Notes under the pieces: model-generated
Database searches by the model: none
What the model was told of the DNA's origin: nothing
What the model saw: only the letters and a program-made list of their open reading frames with translations
Source: Rickettsiales bacterium
GTDB lineage: Bacteria; Pseudomonadota; Alphaproteobacteria; Rickettsiales; SXRF01
Reading direction: 5' to 3'
DNA length: 34,268 bases
Assembly: GCA_947459535.1 (NCBI GenBank)
Contig: CANHDY010000006.1
Coordinates: forward strand, 1 to 34,268
Shown here: positions 3,254-23,196 of the stretch, one piece after another
Layout of the letters: each line of letters begins with the position of its first letter
How positions within the stretch are numbered: position 1 is the first letter of the stretch
Made by a program: the position numbers and the translations under genes

Positions 3254-3339
3254 GTCATTCCTGCGAAAGCAGGAATCCAGCAGCGCCACGTCTGTGGCGC
3301 AATAAATAAAGACTGGATCCCCGCTTCCGCGGGGATGAC
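3254..3339. repeat. Three-hairpin GTCAT...ATCCAG element between pheS and pheT
   Basis: It begins GTCATTCCTGC, folds with GCAGGAATCCAG, has a central hairpin GCGCCAC/GTGGCGC (3283-3300), and ends with CTGGATCCCCGC pairing with GCGGGGATGAC. The right end abuts the GGGAG ribosome site of pheT. Head and tail sequences match neisserial dRS3/NIME-type repeats as I remember them. Confidence 0.85.
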
Positions 3340-3351
3340 GGGAGTAACGCT

Positions 3352-5769
3352 ATGAAATTCACCTTGAGCTGGCTTAAAGACCATCTGGAAACCACGGCAT
3401 CCATCAGTGAGATTGCACAGAAGCTGACCGCCATAGGACTTGAGGTGGAGCAGATTATCGATCGCAGCGAAAGCCTGAAGTCGTTCACGGTGGCACATAT
3501 TCTCGCCGCCGAAAAACACCCGCAGGCAGATAAGCTGCGCGTTTGCAAAGTGGCGTCGGACGCCGGAGAATTGCAGATTGTCTGCGGCGCGCCCAATGCC
3601 CGCGCCGGCATCTATGTGGCGCTGGCTAAGGAAGGTGCGCTGATTCCCCGTGATGGATTTGTCATCAAAAAAACAAGCATCCGCGGTGTGGAATCAAACG
3701 GCATGCTGTGCTCGGCGGATGAACTGCAGATCGGATTCCCCCCCTCTGCCCCCCCCGCAAGCGGGGGGGATGAAAGGGGGGGCATCATCGAGCTGCCGGA
3801 AAGCAACATAGGCACCCCGATTGCTGAGGTGCTGGGGCTTTCTGACCCGGTGATTGATATCGCCATCACCCCCAACCGCGCGGACTGTCTTGGTGTTCGC
3901 GGCATTGCCCGCGATTTAGCGGCAGCCGGGCTGGGCACGCTCAAACCACTCGCCCCCATCAGCAGCGCAGAAGCTGGCGGTGAATCCCCCATCGGCATTA
4001 CCATTGAAACCGCGAGCTGCCAGCAATTTATCGGTATTACTATCCGTGGTGTGAAAAATGCCCCTTCTCCGAAGTGGCTGGCGCAGCGCCTGGAAGCCAT
4101 CGGCCAGAAACCGATTTCGGCGCTGGTGGATATCACCAACTATTTCACTTTCGACCTTGGGCGTCCGCTGCATGTGTATGATGCGGATAAGCTGAAAGGG
4201 CATCTTACCGTGCGCGGCGCGACTGCCGGTGAGCCGCTCCATGCGCTGAATGACAAGCACTACGAGCTTGAGGAAGGCATGTGCGTGATTGCTGATAGCT
4301 CCGGCGCGGTGGCGCTCGGCGGCATTATCGGCGGCATGGCCACCGGCTGCGACCTCAGCACCCAGAACGTGCTGCTTGAAGTGGCGCTGTTTGATCCGGC
4401 GCATGTGGCGGCGAGTGGCCGCGCGCTGCAGATTGAATCTGATGCACGCTATCGTTTTGAACGCGGGCTGGATGTGGCGTTTCTTGAAGAAGGCGCAAGG
4501 CGCGCAGCGGCGATGATTCAGTCGCTATGCGGCGGCGCAGCCGCAAGGCCAGTCATCGCGGGCAAAACTCCAAATTGGCAGCGCATCATTGCCTTCAACC
4601 CCGAGCGCGTAAAAACCCTCGGCGGTGTCGATATTTCAGCAGAAACCAGTTATGGTATTTTAGAAAAGCTTGGTTTTACCGTCATCCGCCATCCGTCATC
4701 CGTCGTCCCGCCCAGCTGGCGCGCGGATGTGGAAGGCGAGGCAGATCTGGTCGAAGAGATACTGCGCATCCACGGCTATGACCACATTCCGGCAAGCCCC
4801 CTGCCCGCTGCCGGCTTCAACACCAGCGCCGCACGAACTCCCGCGCAGCTGCGCGTGCTTGCAGCGCGCCGGGCGGCGGTCATGCTTGGCTATGATGAAA
4901 CCTGTCATTACTCCTTCATTTCTGAAAAACAGGCGAAGGATTTTGGCGGCCAGAAGCCCCAGCTGGTGCTGCAAAACCCGATCTCTGCCGATTTAAGCGT
5001 GATGCGCCCCAGCCTGCTGCCCGGCCTGCTTGCCAGCGCCCGCAGCAATATCAGCCGCGGCATCAGCGATCTTGCGCTCGCCGAGCTTGGGCTGACATTT
5101 CATGATATCGGCGAAAAAGGTCAGCAGATGGTGCTCGGCGCGCTGCGCGCCGGCCGCAGCAAACATTATGTGTATGGCGCTCAGTTTCAGGAAAAGCGTG
5201 ATTTACTATCCGCCTATGACGCCAAGCGCGAGGCGCTGTTTGTGCTGTCGCAGCTCGGCGTGATGAAGGCCGACATCACCACGAGCGCGCCCGCATGGTA
5301 CCATCCCGGCCGCAGCGGCGCGCTGACACTCGGCGGTAAAATCATTCTCGGCTATTTTGGCGAGCTGCACCCGGCGCTGCTCAGCGCGCATGACATCAAT
5401 GAACCGGCAGTTGCTTTTGAAATTTTCCTTGGCGCGATTTTCGAACCGCGCGCAAAAGGCAAAATGAAACCCGCGCTGAAACGTTCGGACTTCCCAGCCG
5501 TGGAGCGCGACTTTGCTTTCATCGTGGATCAGAAACTTCCTGCGGCGGACATTGAAAAAACCATCCGCGCCGCGGATAAGCAGCTCATCACCGAGGTGCA
5601 GCTGTTTGATGTGTATAGCGGCAAAGGGGTGGATAACGGCAAAAAATCGGTCGCCATCCGCGTGACGCTGCAATCGTTTGAGCGCACGCTGACCGAGGAA
5701 GATATCGCCGCCGCCTCGCGCCAGATTCTGCAGGCCGCTGGCAAGTTTGGCGGCGTGCTGCGGCAATGA
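3352..5769 (+). CDS. pheT: Phenylalanyl-tRNA synthetase beta subunit, with two in-frame repeat insertions
   Basis: The 805-residue beta subunit begins MKFTLSWLKDHLETTASISE and shows the N-terminal tRNA-binding (EMAP-like) domain at about 40-155, B3/B4 editing domain, B5 domain with PPSWRADVEGEADLVEEILR, and the C-terminal anticodon-binding FDX-ACB domain (SDFPAVERDFAFIVD near 705). Length is normal for the family. Two stretches are repeat-derived: residues about 129-144 (FPPSAPPASGGDERGG) come from a C/G-run hairpin, and residues 444-452 (VIRHPSSVV) from four 7-bp GTCATCC-like units. Both fall in loops where homologues vary in length. An SD-like GGGAG at 3340-3344 precedes the ATG. The stop overlaps the next gene by ATGA. 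Confidence 0.96.
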   Translation: MKFTLSWLKDHLETTASISEIAQKLTAIGLEVEQIIDRSESLKSFTVAHILAAEKHPQADKLRVCKVASDAGELQIVCGAPNARAGIYVALAKEGALIPRDGFVIKKTSIRGVESNGMLCSADELQIGFPPSAPPASGGDERGGIIELPESNIGTPIAEVLGLSDPVIDIAITPNRADCLGVRGIARDLAAAGLGTLKPLAPISSAEAGGESPIGITIETASCQQFIGITIRGVKNAPSPKWLAQRLEAIGQKPISALVDITNYFTFDLGRPLHVYDADKLKGHLTVRGATAGEPLHALNDKHYELEEGMCVIADSSGAVALGGIIGGMATGCDLSTQNVLLEVALFDPAHVAASGRALQIESDARYRFERGLDVAFLEEGARRAAAMIQSLCGGAAARPVIAGKTPNWQRIIAFNPERVKTLGGVDISAETSYGILEKLGFTVIRHPSSVVPPSWRADVEGEADLVEEILRIHGYDHIPASPLPAAGFNTSAARTPAQLRVLAARRAAVMLGYDETCHYSFISEKQAKDFGGQKPQLVLQNPISADLSVMRPSLLPGLLASARSNISRGISDLALAELGLTFHDIGEKGQQMVLGALRAGRSKHYVYGAQFQEKRDLLSAYDAKREALFVLSQLGVMKADITTSAPAWYHPGRSGALTLGGKIILGYFGELHPALLSAHDINEPAVAFEIFLGAIFEPRAKGKMKPALKRSDFPAVERDFAFIVDQKLPAADIEKTIRAADKQLITEVQLFDVYSGKGVDNGKKSVAIRVTLQSFERTLTEEDIAAASRQILQAAGKFGGVLRQ
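3736..3782. repeat. C-run/G-run hairpin in frame in pheT
   Basis: Runs of C (3738-3744 and 3750-3757) are mirrored by runs of G (3762-3769 and 3775-3782) around GCAAGC, making a very stable stem. It encodes PPSAPPASGGDERGG between DELQIG and IIELPE, where other PheT proteins have a short linker. Related hairpins lie in trmB and dnaX. Confidence 0.7.
4681..4708 (+). repeat. Solo arm of four 7-bp units in pheT
   Basis: GTCATCC, GCCATCC, GTCATCC and GTCGTCC lie end to end (28 bases) and are read in frame as VIRHPSSVV immediately before PPSWR. This is exactly one arm of the paired elements in pheS and aguA; no opposite arm is seen nearby. Confidence 0.75.
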
Positions 5770-9978: not shown

Positions 9979-10869
9979 ATGACCAACATGCTGCGCCTTG
10001 CCGCCATTCAGATGAAATATGCAGGCACTCCCAAAGCAAGCCTTGCGCATGCGCTCGATATGCTCGGCGACGCGGCAGCTAAAGGCGCGCAGGTGGCATG
10101 CCTGCCGGAACTGTTCCTCACGGATTATTTCTGCCAGGGGCTGGATAGCAGTCGTTTTGACCTTGCCGAGCCAGCAGACGGCGCCACCACACAGGCGCTC
10201 TCTATCCTTGCAAAAAAAACCGGCATGGTCATCGTCAATTCCATTTTTGAAAAAGCCGCCGAGGGGCTGTATTACAACACCGCAGTGGTGATTGATAAAG
10301 ACGGCAGCACCGCTGGCATTTACCGCAAAATGCACATTCCCCACGACCCGCTGTTTGAAGAAAAATATTACTTCACGCCCGGCGATCTTGGCTTTAAGGC
10401 ACACGCCACCAGCGCCGGCAAGCTGGGCACGCTCATCTGCTGGGATCAGTGGTATCCCGAAGGCGCGCGCCTCACCGCCATGCAGGGCGCACACACCCTC
10501 TTCTACCCCACCGCCATCGGCTGGCATCCTTCCGAGAAGCGTGAGTGGGGCGAATCGCAGGTCGATAGCTGGATCACCATCCAGCGCGCCCACGCGATTG
10601 CGAGCGGCGTGTTTGTGTGCGCCGTAAACCGTATCGGCCACGAAATTCCGCCGCAGGGTGGCGATGGCCTTGAATTCTTCGGCAATTCCTTCATCTGCGA
10701 TCCGTATGGCCGCATGCTCGCCCACGCATCGCATGACAAAGAGGAGGTGCTGATTGCTGAGGCCGACCTCTCGCTGGTGGAGCATAAGCGCCGCAACTGG
10801 CCGTTTTTCCGCGACCGGCGTGTGGATGCATATGCGGGGCTGACGTCCCGGTGGACGGATGACAGATGA
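9979..10869 (+). CDS. aguB: N-carbamoylputrescine amidase
   Basis: The 296-residue nitrilase-superfamily enzyme hydrolyses N-carbamoylputrescine to putrescine, CO2 and ammonia. The catalytic triad is visible as Glu44 in LPELFLTDYFCQ, Lys117 in YRKMHIPHDP and Cys154 in LICWDQWYPE; the stretches AIGWHPSEK and EFFGNSFICDPYGR also match AguB. The ATG at 9979 is chosen because it gives the family N-terminus and has CAGGAA nine bases upstream; a TTG at 9940 is less likely. The last residues (RWTDDR) and the stop are encoded by 7-bp repeat units, the left terminus of the four-helix-bundle cassette that begins at 10850. aguA lies just beyond that cassette, so the pair once formed a direct two-gene unit. 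Confidence 0.94.
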   Translation: MTNMLRLAAIQMKYAGTPKASLAHALDMLGDAAAKGAQVACLPELFLTDYFCQGLDSSRFDLAEPADGATTQALSILAKKTGMVIVNSIFEKAAEGLYYNTAVVIDKDGSTAGIYRKMHIPHDPLFEEKYYFTPGDLGFKAHATSAGKLGTLICWDQWYPEGARLTAMQGAHTLFYPTAIGWHPSEKREWGESQVDSWITIQRAHAIASGVFVCAVNRIGHEIPPQGGDGLEFFGNSFICDPYGRMLAHASHDKEEVLIAEADLSLVEHKRRNWPFFRDRRVDAYAGLTSRWTDDR

Positions 10870-11281
10870 CGGATGACAAAAAGAAATATAAAGCTGTTAA
10901 ATCTTTCGAGGATATTGAGGTATTTCGGCGTGCTTATAAAATCTCACTGATTGTCCATAAAACCAGCCTAACCTTTCCACAAATCGAGCAGTATGCACTA
11001 GGCGACCAAATTCGTAGAGCGAGTAAATCTATCTGTGCAAATATTGCGGAAGGCTACGGAAAACAAAAGCAATCACCTGCAGAATTTAAACGTTTTCTCC
11101 TGATGTCATTAGGATCCAGCGATGAAATGAGAGTATGGTGCAGATATTGCTATGATCTGGGCTATATTGTAGAAAATTCATGGCAAGAATGGCGTAATGA
11201 ATACGCTACTATTTCTCGCATGTTACAGGGGTTGATCAATCATCTATGAACTTGTCATCTGTCATCCGTCATCCGTCATCC
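10850..11281. mobile_element. Putative S23/four-helix-bundle cassette with four-unit 7-bp inverted ends
   Basis: The left end is GGTGGAC, GGATGAC, AGATGAC, GGATGAC (10850-10877); the right end is GTCATCT, GTCATCC, GTCATCC, GTCATCC (11254-11281). Both are exactly 28 bases and inverted to each other. The 376 bases between them hold one gene and are visibly richer in A/T than the flanks. No transposase, target duplication or recombinase gene is seen. The arms are the same type as the short elements in pheS, pheT and aguA, so I read this as the gene-bearing member of that family. Confidence 0.65.
10866..11249 (+). CDS. Four-helix-bundle protein (S23 / TIGR02436-like)
   Basis: The 127-residue product contains the family core: FEDIEVFRRAYKISLIVHKT, then LTFPQIEQYALGDQIRRASKS, then ICANIAEGYGKQKQSPAEFK and RFLLMSLGSSDEMRVWCRYC. 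Members are known from intervening sequences in 23S rRNA genes and as relatives of Avd, the accessory protein of diversity-generating retroelements; no enzymatic function is established. The start ATG lies in the third 7-bp unit of the left terminus, so the protein begins MTDDKKK, and it overlaps the aguB stop as ATGA. Its own stop overlaps the aguA start as ATGA. The gene is A/T-richer than its neighbours, which suggests recent arrival. Here it sits in a protein-coding operon, not in rRNA. Confidence 0.88.
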   Translation: MTDDKKKYKAVKSFEDIEVFRRAYKISLIVHKTSLTFPQIEQYALGDQIRRASKSICANIAEGYGKQKQSPAEFKRFLLMSLGSSDEMRVWCRYCYDLGYIVENSWQEWRNEYATISRMLQGLINHL

Positions 11282-12448
11282 TACAGAATGCCCGCCGAGT
11301 GGGAGAAGCAAGCCGCCATCTGGCTCGCATGGCCGCATAATAAAGAAGACTGGCCGGATAAGTTTGAGCCGATTCCCTGGGTGTATGCGGAAATTATTCG
11401 CCATATCGCACGCTCGCAAATGGTGCGCCTCGTGGTGCAGAATGACAAAGAACAAAAACGCGCCACCGACGTGCTGGAGCGCGCCGGCGTGAACATGAAA
11501 CACATCAAGTGGCATGTGATTCCCACCGATCGCATCTGGCTGCGCGATAGCGGCCCGATTTTTGTAAAGCCGGTGGACGGTGGACGGTGGACGGCTGACA
11601 AGAAAAAACAATCGCCGTCATCCGTCATCCGTCATCCGTCATCCGTTATGCTCGACTGGCGTTTTAACGCGTGGGCAAAATACCCCAACCACAAAAAAGA
11701 TGATTTAGTTCCGGAGAAAATTTTTGAATATTTTCGTCATCGCCCGAATCGCCATGGCGATTCTAGGGCGATCCAGCTGGATTCCCCTAGAATTTTGCAA
11801 AAGCAAAATTCGGGGAATGACGTGACTATCATCCAACCGATGCACAAAGGAAAGCGCGTGGTACTGGAAGGTGGCTCTATCGACGTGAACGGCAAAGGCA
11901 CGCTCATTACAACTGAGGAATGTTTGCTCTCCAAAATCCAGTGCCGCAACCCGGGCTTTACGTGTGATGATTATGCTGAGGTGTTTGCAACCTATCTTGG
12001 CATTGATCAGATCATCTGGCTTGGAAACGGCATTGTCGGCGATGATACGCACGGCCATGTCGATGACATCACGCGCTTTGTGAAAGCCGATACGATTGTC
12101 ACGGTGGTTGAGAAAGATAAGCGTGATGACAATTACAGCCTACTGCAGGATAACCTGAAGCGCCTGAAAAAAGCACGCGACGCGAAGGGTAACGCCTTTA
12201 ACATTATTGAGCTGCCCATGCCACGGCCAGTAGTGTTTGAAGGCCAGCGCCTGCCTGCCTCCTATGCCAATTTCCTCATCTGCAACGAGGTCGTGCTGGT
12301 GCCGACCTTTAACGACCCCATGGATAGAATTGCGCTCAATATTCTGGCCGAGTGCTTTCCGAAGCGCGAGGTGGTGGGTATTCATGCGGTGGATCTCGTC
12401 TGGGGGCTGGGCACCATCCACTGCATGAGCCAGCAGGAACCTGCGTGA
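11246..12448 (+). CDS. aguA: Agmatine deiminase with repeat-derived N-terminus and two in-frame insertions
   Basis: The 400-residue enzyme converts agmatine to N-carbamoylputrescine, the substrate of AguB. Key motifs are present: MPAEWEKQAAIWLAWPHNKE, IWLRDSGPIFV, VLEGGSIDVNGKGTLITTEE, GNGIVGDDTHGHVDDITRFV and the catalytic Cys393 in GTIHCMSQQEP. Three parts are repeat-encoded: the first residues (NLSSVIRHPSS), about residues 110-133 (VDGGRWTADKKKQSPSSVIR region), and about residues 164-193 between VPEKIFEYF and TIIQPM. All are in frame and fall in loops or at the end, so activity may be kept. The start at 11246 overlaps the preceding stop; an in-frame ATG at 11288 would give the ancestral MPAEW start but has no ribosome site. 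Homologues are about 340-350 residues, in line with about 50 inserted residues. Confidence 0.92.
   Translation: MNLSSVIRHPSSYRMPAEWEKQAAIWLAWPHNKEDWPDKFEPIPWVYAEIIRHIARSQMVRLVVQNDKEQKRATDVLERAGVNMKHIKWHVIPTDRIWLRDSGPIFVKPVDGGRWTADKKKQSPSSVIRHPSSVMLDWRFNAWAKYPNHKKDDLVPEKIFEYFRHRPNRHGDSRAIQLDSPRILQKQNSGNDVTIIQPMHKGKRVVLEGGSIDVNGKGTLITTEECLLSKIQCRNPGFTCDDYAEVFATYLGIDQIIWLGNGIVGDDTHGHVDDITRFVKADTIVTVVEKDKRDDNYSLLQDNLKRLKKARDAKGNAFNIIELPMPRPVVFEGQRLPASYANFLICNEVVLVPTFNDPMDRIALNILAECFPKREVVGIHAVDLVWGLGTIHCMSQQEPA
11572..11644. repeat. Four-unit 7-bp inverted element in frame in aguA
   Basis: The left arm is GGTGGAC three times and GGCTGAC (11572-11599); a 17-base A-rich spacer follows; the right arm is GTCATCC four times (11617-11644). 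The two arms use different versions of the unit (GGTGGAC versus GGATGAC), as also seen in pheS. The total is 73 bp, against 72 in pheS; the frame is kept by adjacent bases. Confidence 0.85.
11736..11823. repeat. GTCAT...ATCCAG / CTGGAT...ATGACG doublet in frame in aguA
   Basis: The first hairpin (11736-11776) is GTCATCGCCC, then GAATCGCC/GGCGATTC, then GGGCGATCCAG. The second (11777-11823) is CTGGATTCCCC, AATTTTGC/GCAAAATT, then GGGGAATGACG. The two abut head to tail. They encode about 29 residues of AguA (from RHRPNRHGDSRAIQLD to about GNDV) absent from homologues. Confidence 0.85.
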
Positions 12449-19618: not shown

Positions 19619-20330
19619 CACGGTGCTGGTGGTGGGTGCCACTTCCTCGATGGCTCAGGTGGTGTGCCGCGAGCTGGCCATGCGCGGCTATAAGCTGGTG
19701 CTGGTCGGGCGCGATGAAACAGAGCTGGAGCTGCTCGCCGCCGACCTGCGCACACGCAGCAGCGCCAGCTGTCGCACACAGGTGGCCGATGTAGCGGATT
19801 CAGGCTTTTCCTGCGAGCAGCTGCTGGGCGCGGCAGGCGCGTTCAACCATGCGCTGATCACGCTTGGCGATATGGGCAGCGGCGCTGATGATGCCGCTAA
19901 TCTTAACGCTGTCACACAGCTGAACTATCTCGCACCAGCCGCACTGGCGGCAGCGGCAGCGAGCCGCCTTGCCGAATCAGGCGGCGGGGTGGTGGCATTG
20001 GTCAGCTCGGTGGCGGGGGATCGCGGCCGCGCGAGCAACTATGTTTATGGCAGCGCCAAGGCCGCACTTTCCAGCTTTGCTTCTGGCCTGAGAAATCGCT
20101 ACGCCAAGCTTGGCGTGCATGTGCTGACCATCAAACCCGGCTTTGTCGACACCCCCATGACCTGGGGCATGACAAGCCCGCTGATCGCCAGCCGCGAGCG
20201 TGTCGCGCGCGATATCGTGCGTGCCATGGAAACAAAACGCGATATTCTCTACACGCCATGGTTCTGGCGCCTCATCATGGGCATTATCCAGCACATTCCT
20301 GAGCGTGTGTTTAAGAAGCTGAAATTGTAA
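19605..20330 (+). CDS. SDR-family reductase, DprE2-like
   Basis: The 241-residue short-chain dehydrogenase has a nucleotide-binding VVGATSSMAQVVCRELA loop, the catalytic Ser in SSVAGDRGR, the YGSAK active-site Tyr/Lys and PGFVDTPM. Its C-terminus, ILYTPWFWRLIMGIIQHIPE followed by RVFKKLKL, mirrors the DprE2 tail (membrane-proximal helix then HIPxxxFxKL), which sets it apart from general SDRs. DprE2 reduces the 2'-keto intermediate made by DprE1 to polyprenylphospho-arabinofuranose. The ATG at 19605 overlaps the AftB-like gene by 14 bases; an ATG at 19593 (MSISMKQ) is an alternative. The stop is followed at once by a 9-bp-unit palindromic element. Phosphoribosyl transferase (UbiA-like) and phosphatase genes needed to make the substrate are not in the window. 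Confidence 0.87.
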   Translation: MKQNDTVLVVGATSSMAQVVCRELAMRGYKLVLVGRDETELELLAADLRTRSSASCRTQVADVADSGFSCEQLLGAAGAFNHALITLGDMGSGADDAANLNAVTQLNYLAPAALAAAAASRLAESGGGVVALVSSVAGDRGRASNYVYGSAKAALSSFASGLRNRYAKLGVHVLTIKPGFVDTPMTWGMTSPLIASRERVARDIVRAMETKRDILYTPWFWRLIMGIIQHIPERVFKKLKL

Positions 20331-20416
20331 GTTGCGTAAGTTGCGAAGGTTACGCAGGTTGCAAAGGTTGATTGCCAAACCTACGAAACATCCGTAACCT
20401 CCGCGACCTACGCAAC
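20331..20416. repeat. Palindromic element of four plus four 9-bp units (copy 1)
   Basis: Left units are GTTGCGTAA, GTTGCGAAG, GTTACGCAG, GTTGCAAAG (20331-20366). A 14-base spacer GTTGATTGCCAAAC follows. Right units are CTACGAAAC, ATCCGTAAC, CTCCGCGAC, CTACGCAAC (20381-20416). The total is 86 bp. It exactly fills the gap between the convergent stops of the DprE2-like gene and recR, so it could act as a two-way terminator or spacer. Confidence 0.85.
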
Positions 20417-20417
20417 C

Positions 20418-21008
20418 TCAGAATGGCAATCTCGCCTTCAGCGCTGCGCCAAGCGTGCCATCATCGAGATAATCCAGCTCGCCGCCCATCGGAATACCCT
20501 GCGCGAGGCGTGAAATCGACACCGCGCAATTTTCCAGCCTGCCGGTTAAGTAATGAGCGGTGGTCTGGCCTTCGATGGTGGCGTTGGTGGCGAGAATAAT
20601 CTCTTTCACCTGCTCGCTGGCCGCGCGGCGAATGAGCGGTTCAATGTTCAGTTGCGCCGGCGTTCGATCATCCAGCGCGGAGAGCGTGCCGCCAAGCACA
20701 TGGTACTGGCCGCGATACAGATTGCAGCGCTCAATCGCCCACAAATCCGCCAGATCCTCCACCACGCAGATGACCGAGCCATCGCGCCGCGCATCGCTGC
20801 AGATGCTGCATGGGCTGATGGTATCGAGATTGCCGCAGCTGGCGCACGGGATGACTTTCTGCATCGTGCGGGTGATCGCATCCGCGAGCGGCGCCATCAT
20901 TTTTTCTTTATGGCGCACCAGCTGCAGCACAATGCGTCGCGCCGAGCGCGGCCCCAGCCCGGGCAATCTGGCAAAAAGGCGGATCAGTTCGTCGAGTTCG
21001 TGGGACAT
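20418..21008 (-). CDS. recR: Recombination mediator protein RecR
   Basis: The 196-residue protein starts MSHELDELIRLFARLPGLGP with the helix-hairpin-helix, has a zinc finger (CASCGNLDTISPCSIC, residues about 55-70), a Toprim domain beginning ICVVEDLADLWAIE, and the C-terminal ISRLAQGIPMGGELDYLDDG-type Walker-B-like motif. RecR works with RecF/RecO to load RecA at gaps. Length is normal. It is last in ffs-dnaX-ybaB-recR. A palindromic element starts seven bases before its ATG, and no purine-rich ribosome site is visible on the coding strand there (CCTCCTGA instead), so initiation may depend on coupling or on the repeat. Confidence 0.96.
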   Translation of the reverse strand: MSHELDELIRLFARLPGLGPRSARRIVLQLVRHKEKMMAPLADAITRTMQKVIPCASCGNLDTISPCSICSDARRDGSVICVVEDLADLWAIERCNLYRGQYHVLGGTLSALDDRTPAQLNIEPLIRRAASEQVKEIILATNATIEGQTTAHYLTGRLENCAVSISRLAQGIPMGGELDYLDDGTLGAALKARLPF

Positions 21009-21015
21009 TCAGGAG

Positions 21016-21105
21016 GTTTCGAAAGTCTGGTTGGTTTCGTAGGTTGCGAAGGTTAAGCAAACAGTTCACTTGCGAAACCTACGAAACATCCGAAACCTAC
21101 GCAAC
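21016..21105. repeat. Palindromic element of four plus four 9-bp units (copy 2)
   Basis: Left units are GTTTCGAAA, GTCTGGTTG, GTTTCGTAG, GTTGCGAAG (21016-21051). The spacer is 18 bases. Right units are TTGCGAAAC, CTACGAAAC, ATCCGAAAC, CTACGCAAC (21070-21105). The right arm matches copy 1 unit by unit with few changes. It fills the gap from seven bases before the recR start to one base before the ybaB stop. Confidence 0.83.
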
Positions 21106-21106
21106 C

Positions 21107-21427
21107 TTAAAACGGTAATTTGATGCCCGGCGGCAGATTAATGCTTTTGCTGAGGCGGTTCATTTCTTCGGTGGTGGTGCTATCGACCTTCTCACGTGCA
21201 TTACGGTAAGCGGCAATGATGAGATCTTCGAGCGTTTCTTTTTCTTCGGGCTTCAGCAGCTCAGCATCAATGTTCACGCGCAGCATTTCATGCTTACCGG
21301 TGATGGTCATGCTCACCGCGCCGCCGCCGCTGCTGCCTTCAAAGTGGCTGGCTTCCAGACGCGACTGCATCTCGGTCATCCGGCTTTGCATTTCCTGTGC
21401 TTGTTTCATCATTTTCTGTAGATTCAT
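21107..21427 (-). CDS. ybaB: YbaB/EbfC family nucleoid-associated protein
   Basis: The 106-residue protein has the expected N-terminal coiled-coil (MNLQKMMKQAQEMQSRMTEM) and core with GGGAVSMTITGKHEMLRVNI, KETLEDLIIAAYRNAREKVD and C-terminal LPPGIKLPF. It forms a dimer that binds DNA without strong sequence need. It lies between dnaX and recR as in most proteobacteria. The start has AGAGG about seven bases upstream. The gap to dnaX is only nine bases, the one junction in this operon without a repeat element. Confidence 0.94.
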   Translation of the reverse strand: MNLQKMMKQAQEMQSRMTEMQSRLEASHFEGSSGGGAVSMTITGKHEMLRVNIDAELLKPEEKETLEDLIIAAYRNAREKVDSTTTEEMNRLSKSINLPPGIKLPF

Positions 21428-23107: not shown

Positions 23108-23110
23108 GAG

Positions 23111-23196
23111 GTTTCGTAGGTTTCAAAGGTTTCGAAGGTTTCGTAGGTTTGCCTAGTAACCTGCGCAACCTGCGCAACTTACGCAACCTCTGAAAC
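23111..23196. repeat. Palindromic element of four plus four 9-bp units (copy 3)
   Basis: Left units are GTTTCGTAG, GTTTCAAAG, GTTTCGAAG, GTTTCGTAG (23111-23146). The spacer is GTTTGCCTAGTAAC (14 bases). Right units are CTGCGCAAC, CTGCGCAAC, TTACGCAAC, CTCTGAAAC (23161-23196). The total is 86 bp, identical in layout to copy 1. It fills the space between the SRP RNA and dnaX and forms the dnaX 5' leader. Confidence 0.85.

Follow-up and report, generated by a model that had tools for sequence, protein, structure and literature searches.

Paired heptamer arrays in aguA and elsewhere in a Rickettsiales genome, and the possible part of IVP proteins in their spread

The aguA repeat and related elements of the window

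The analyzed DNA (34,268 nucleotides of a Rickettsiales bacterium, contig CANHDY010000006.1; hereafter, the window) includes the gene aguA (11246–12448, + strand; PAD_porph / agmatine deiminase), a 400-aa agmatine deiminase-like ORF in which a 4 + 4 pair of heptamer arrays sits in frame. The left arm (11572–11599, +; 4 × 7 bp) consists of three GGTGGAC units (11572–11578, 11579–11585, and 11586–11592) and a degenerate fourth unit, GGCTGAC (11593–11599), and contains no stop in the aguA frame. It is followed by a 17-bp spacer, AAGAAAAAACAATCGCC (11600–11616, +), and by the right arm (11617–11644, +), in which GTCATCC is repeated four times with the opposite polarity, so that the G-rich strand reads inward. 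The first-pass annotation of the window had described a 7-bp-unit element with a GGTGGAC-type left arm, a GTCATCC-type right arm, and imperfectly complementary arms. Such an element is indeed present; in each unit, its arms are complementary at 5/7 positions, and an internal loop of two bases recurs every 7 bp.

The spacer plus the last codon of the left arm encodes the peptide DKKKQS. At the same loop, the congener G299 has DKKKNK, and this comparison suggests that the aguA spacer may be the host loop itself. In addition, a second palindromic repeat of about 30 aa lies in frame in aguA (11740–11823); it is absent in G299, and three further genomic loci encode a similar peptide. Further palindromic repeats inside or beside genes were noted in the window at 1511–2176 and 3255–3611 and in the polA stretch (L058), with peptides resembling CERSEAIQ and SRESGNPD..RFRGDDG.

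The same annotation had counted the aguA pair as the second complete element, but another one, in which 4 + 4 units enclose an IVP gene, comes before it at the aguB–aguA junction (10850–11281). Its left arm (10850–10877, +; GGTGGAC GGATGAC AGATGAC GGATGAC) and right arm (11254–11281, +; GTCATCT and three GTCATCC units) are 376 bp apart. The IVP gene (10866–11249, +), whose ATG falls inside the heptamer array, encodes a 127-aa four-helix bundle protein (PF05635, E 1.4e-30; TIGR02436). It is this element that encodes the PF05635 protein, and the aguA pair itself encodes none. The IVP of the window matches the Avd model of diversity-generating retroelements (DGR) weakly (E 2.6e-4), and its solved relatives, chains 2gsc and 2rld, are uncharacterised; we infer that this four-helix bundle protein is a relative of DGR Avd. 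The start of the longest aguA ORF (11246–11290) adjoins the right arm of the IVP element and overlaps the IVP stop. Translation of aguA probably begins at the MPAEW codon farther downstream, the annotated ATG being part of the preceding IVP element.

Several other elements occur in the window. The gene pheS contains a short in-frame pair (2639–2710, +) with four GGATGAC/GGATTAC units, a 16-bp spacer, and three GTCAACC units plus GTCCACT; the earlier description of this pair (GGATGAC with GTCAACC type, 4 + 4 units, spacer 16) was accurate. A single unpaired array is located in pheT (4681–4708, +; GTCATCC GCCATCC GTCATCC GTCGTCC). In addition, three inverted pairs of 9-mer arrays were found at 20327–20420 (GTTGCGAAG / AAACCTACG), 21015–21108, and 23109–23189 (AGGTTTCGT / ACGCAACCT), for which no strand is assigned. 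Their unit is shared with the arms of two other IVP genes, those located on contigs C8 and C107. These three pairs are intergenic, near recR, ebfC, and dnaX. The elements of the window are situated within or between protein genes, not in 23S rRNA.

The array family in the genome and at the same sites in relatives

The draft genome to which the window belongs (G000, 98% complete) was sampled as stretches; one 20-kb stretch (L064) was masked and excluded from later counts. In 434 kb, including these 20 kb, 27 tracts with period 7 were detected versus 2 in the dinucleotide shuffle, and periods 4, 5, 8, 10, and 11 gave about 3–6 tracts each in the same sample. The shuffled 434-kb sample also contained no inverted pair. 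The dimer GTCATCCGTCATCC, with no more than one mismatch, occurs 64 times in the genome, and its reversed control does not occur (0). By these counts the family is not a product of chance, and the aguA repeat is one of many convergent heptamer-array pairs in this genome.

A table of 20 pairs from the GG(A/T)(T/G)GAC family was compiled, with units counted by a lenient rule. Exactly four units are present in 14/20 left arms and 16/20 right arms, and most of the remaining arms read five only through one weak flanking unit that passes the lenient threshold. In the IVP-flanking arms of other phyla, the mode is 4–5 units and both arms of a locus agree. The inner spacers are 1, 11, 11, 15, 16, 17, 18, 18, 20, 25, 29, 30, 45, 50, 63, 68, 70, 108, 119, and 376 bp; the last is the IVP-coding form, and the others run from 1 to 119. 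As one of two possible readings, it had been suggested that the unit number of four and the spacer of 16–17 are selected, and that wide scatter in other copies would count against this. The unit number is tight and thus nearly fixed, as expected, but the spacer is widely scattered, which rules out its length as a fixed property. According to inspection by eye, other unit types of this genome (GTTGCT, GGGATTA, GTGGATC, and CCTGAAT) are likewise arranged with about four units facing four. Immediately inside the left arm, the sequence tends to be A-rich, and immediately ahead of the right arm T-rich; single arrays show the same. At least 11 pairs lie in frame in genes, including pheS, aguA, alr, carA, murD, gltX, priA, and polA (the polA label was assigned from its sequence).

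Subtypes and stops were counted from an arm table typed from the printed sequence. Both arms belong to the same subtype in 17/19 scored pairs; mixed arms are thus exceptional and limited to aguA and pheS. Three or more GGATGAC units place TGA in all three sense frames, and arrays of GGTGGAC, GTCATCC, GTCAACC, or GTCCACC never do. All frames are closed in 0/11 sense 5' arms in ORFs versus 7/16 arms outside ORFs, although this filter is partly circular, since elements within ORFs are open by definition. The comparison of TGA-bearing units was not significant (p 0.11). Genic 5' arms contain broken units, namely, GGATTAC in pheS, GGATCAC in polA, and GGATGGC in alr and carA, and aguA has the stop-free subtype. 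Four intact GGATGAC units would be impossible as the 5' arm of aguA because TGA closes all three frames, and the mixed arms of this gene appear to fit such a coding filter.

The first-pass annotation had seen in the mixed arms a sign of recombination or conversion between two subtypes. Both subtypes are common in the genome, and the arms seem to change independently; nevertheless, most pairs are concordant and the 28-bp arrays offer little homology for conversion. As the coding filter accounts for the aguA arms, recombination is neither shown nor needed, and we regard it as improbable.

The sites were further compared with those of relatives. In G299, the aguA, pheS, hemW, and murD sites and three IVP sites are empty, and the pheS site is also empty in G310 and G063. 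Period-7 arrays were found at 6/12 short-pair sites in G299, and 0/400 random segments reached their score; several of the G299 sites plainly belong to other families (GGATTCA, GGGATCG, and GTTGCTG). The GGHTTCA family is not private to G299, as some copies were found in all seven genomes tested. AGGCTTA or AGGCTTC pairs occupy the aguA loop in G063 and G312, and an AGGCTTC-type pair is present in the pheS loop of G312. At the carA site of G299, the two arms come from different families and their G-rich strands still converge, which suggests that arms can be rewritten independently.

The alr pair brackets the conserved VDTGMSRLGL stretch of Alr, and the carA pair brackets the conserved GLDLAKAVS of CarA. 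Alr and CarA with arms are not much longer than their homologues. Judging by these alignments, the arms of alr and carA appear to have overwritten host sequence, and the pair appears not to be a cassette. A simple insertion with its own cargo is ruled out for both genes by the alignment of the spacer to homologues. The element-specific interior of a classical MITE or transposon is likewise missing, the interior of the alr and carA pairs being host coding sequence. A search by eye for target site duplications against the G299 flanks at 15 sites, which have diverged, revealed none evident.

Overwriting without insertion in alr and carA would also be explained by local mutation only, in which slippage grows the tracts, template switching (quasipalindrome repair) inverts them, and IVP is a bystander residing in such tracts. 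The same process would account for homogeneous units within each arm, mismatching arms, and the turnover of units at a fixed site.

Alternatively, the pairs could be kept for the fold of the transcript, as an RNase III site, terminator, or mRNA stabiliser, similarly to 23S rRNA intervening sequences. The predicted RNA fold of the aguA pair has an energy of −32.7 kcal/mol versus −20.9 ± 2.8 for shuffles (z −4.2), and the z values of the aguA and pheS folds are about −4.2 to −4.8. In addition, the intervening sequence (IVS) of Coxiella carries heptamers at an RNase III site (PMC4990558). Against an RNA hairpin, arm mismatches show no G.U excess (G.U 66 versus A.C 81), both strands fold equally, many pairs lie within translated genes, and the G299 carA arms keep their convergent polarity even though they belong to unrelated families. 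The selection of an RNA fold therefore seems a poor candidate.

IVP genes, their flanking arrays, and the dispersal of units

The draft genome of the window contains six IVP genes. In five of them, inverted arrays of 7- or 9-mers lie both upstream and downstream; the remaining gene, located at a contig end, has an array on its one readable side. The array unit is specific to each locus, with 9-mers instead of 7-mers in two. The arms of one IVP (L032, contig C54) consist of mixed 9- and 7-base units (9,7,9,9) and may represent a transitional state between the period classes.

A wider set comprised 80 IVP loci from genome contigs of many bacterial phyla and one archaeon, of which 78 could be scored. 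The inverted score between upstream and downstream flanks exceeded the maximum of 234 swapped pairs in 55/78 loci. The best flank period was 7 or 14 in 61/78 loci, and control flanks 1.2 kb away had no preferred period. In an independent Pseudomonadota set, which brings the total to 106 loci, the best period was 7 or 14 in 27/28; only 3/28 exceeded the swapped-pair maximum, this control being inflated by the many loci that share a unit. Upstream and downstream units match within one mismatch in 41/62 loci versus about 3% when swapped. A unit is shared by 6/6 pairs of IVPs with similarity above 0.8 and by 2–6% of those below 0.5. As far as these comparisons indicate, unit identity tracks IVP similarity and yet appears to turn over fast. 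No rRNA matches were found at 20 other IVP loci, so the IVP-array family is not confined to rRNA.

The constancy of the unit number could also reflect G-quadruplexes, as proposed for the GGGAATC arrays of Xanthomonas: four units would give four G runs, which would set both the number four and the G-rich polarity. The left arms are G-rich (GC skew 0.48) in 47/55 loci, and the four-unit mode is observed both here and in PMC4692102. Arrays of GGATGAC/GGTGGAC and GGGATTA contain four G runs; however, those of AGTGCTA, AGTTGCT, and GATGAAT do not, and these units without GG runs are nevertheless present in about four copies. Convergent pairing would also be left unexplained, and we consider this possibility very improbable.

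Dispersed units were then related to the IVPs of the same genomes. In genomes of another alphaproteobacterial family with an AGTAGGC-armed IVP, 52, 82, 34, 28, and 26 AGTAGGC dimers were counted versus 0–9 in seven relatives. Among the matches listed, neighbouring AGTAGGC dimers on the + and − strands are convergent, many pairs being roughly 50–110 bp apart. Within the family to which the window's genome belongs, the IVP arms of relatives are of the GGTGGAC type (G302), AGGCTTA (G063), and GGATTCA (G306), and these units recur as short pairs; G306 also has a broken IVP with GGATGAC arms at the same aguB–aguA junction. In two genera, an orthologous IVP element with the unit AGTGCTA lies upstream of a nuoD-like gene (L246 of G312 and L031 on contig C58 of G000). 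A copy of this element in G304 (L250) is apparently decayed. Across six genomes, array density rises with the number of IVP genes, which is only suggestive given the small samples; G299 has three IVP genes, yet no array at threshold was found in its 80-kb sample. Taken at the level of these sequence counts, the dispersal of units appears to follow the unit of the resident IVP.

Slippage with template-switch repair, acting without IVP, is the main rival explanation. Against it, one unit type is common to dozens of unlinked loci per genome, IVP loci of many phyla carry such flanking pairs, and the units that are dispersed are those of the resident IVP; we consider it unlikely.

Proposed origin of the arrays and comparison with known systems

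In our best explanation, to which we assign a probability of about 0.6, the aguA pair belongs, as a short, non-coding form, to a REPIN-like family of dispersed repeats linked to IVP. An array comprises four 7-mers, or 9-mers in a sister group, its G-rich strand is directed inward, and arrays form convergent pairs. A pair with an IVP gene between its arrays is the presumed coding form, and a pair with a short host segment between them would be the short form. IVP would recognise its own heptamer and place or rewrite arrays in trans, in the manner of RAYT and its REPINs. Copies would survive where they are tolerated, in protein loops and at gene ends, and would stay at those sites while, in the course of time, their arms are converted one by one to a different unit. 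The mixture of subtypes in aguA would result from such rewriting plus the coding filter, the 5' arm needing the stop-free subtype or broken units and GTCATCC being harmless as a 3' arm. Convergent polarity, four-unit arms, IVP flanks across phyla, unit types that go with IVP similarity, dispersed copies of the unit of a resident IVP, and the persistence of sites are observations; the mobility of the elements and the function of IVP are what we infer from sequence comparisons.

A more specific mechanism can be put forward tentatively, as possible rather than probable: four-helix IVP proteins would drive a widespread class of elements that write into genomes. Each IVP lineage would recognise its heptamer and, without a known transposase or reverse transcriptase, write convergent four-unit arrays at sites that tolerate them, replacing host sequence and converting older arrays to its own unit. 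The arms of alr and carA, which bracket host sequence with little change in length, unlike a simple insertion, speak against the best explanation. Profile searches of the whole draft genome of the window gave 0 matches to reverse transcriptase (PF00078) and 0 matches to the Y1 transposase of RAYT (PF01797). A reverse transcriptase or Y1/HUH transposase was thus rejected as the agent in this genome.

In REPIN systems, the repeat type tracks the gene lineage, and both single and paired copies occur. The REPIN/RAYT system (PMC3116915, PMC3733652) is the nearest working analogue, sharing dispersed short inverted pairs and a single cognate gene flanked by its own repeat. Inverted pairs of a dispersed short repeat together with such a cognate gene were found here as well. 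By contrast, the arms described here are tandem 4 × 7 arrays rather than one palindromic REP, and the cognate gene encodes a four-helix IVP instead of a Y1 transposase, with no Y1_Tnp found in the genome. As for DGR, the weak match of IVP to Avd is one likeness, and the overwriting of sites without a change in length recalls retrohoming, but the genome has no reverse transcriptase. Rickettsia palindromic elements and other in-frame palindromic repeats also lie in frame in essential genes and are tolerated in protein loops; the Rickettsia elements have a longer consensus palindrome in place of heptamer arrays that enclose host sequence, and are not known to be accompanied by an IVP.

Heptamers near an IVP gene have been reported for the Coxiella 23S rRNA IVS, a single rRNA insert in which GACAGAT heptamers are located upstream of the S23p/IVP gene (PMC4990558). 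The protein family and the position of heptamers beside the IVP gene are the same, whereas the arrays described here are on both sides and inverted, occur in many phyla, apparently mostly outside rRNA, and have gene-less dispersed copies. The Xanthomonas protein is described as a pentamer of four-helix bundles (PMC4990558). Heptameric arrays have been described in Xanthomonas and Nostoc, those of Xanthomonas mostly with four copies and about 70 convergent pairs (PMC4692102), and the TAACTGA repeats of Beggiatoaceae are also 7-bp units (PMC4679880). They were interpreted as G-quadruplex or regulatory repeats, and no mention of the IVP family was found in the text of these two papers. No paper in the open-access literature was found to report a general link between IVP and heptamer arrays.

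IVP (PF05635) is a widespread family of unknown role, and scattered reports of bacterial heptamer arrays have accumulated over the years with no cause assigned. If true, a general association of the two, in which the unit follows the protein lineage, would give both a function. It would also mean that short repeats rewrite, in frame, parts of essential proteins such as those encoded by pheS, alr, carA, murD, and polA. IVP, whose genes such paired heptamer blocks flank across bacteria, may help them spread.
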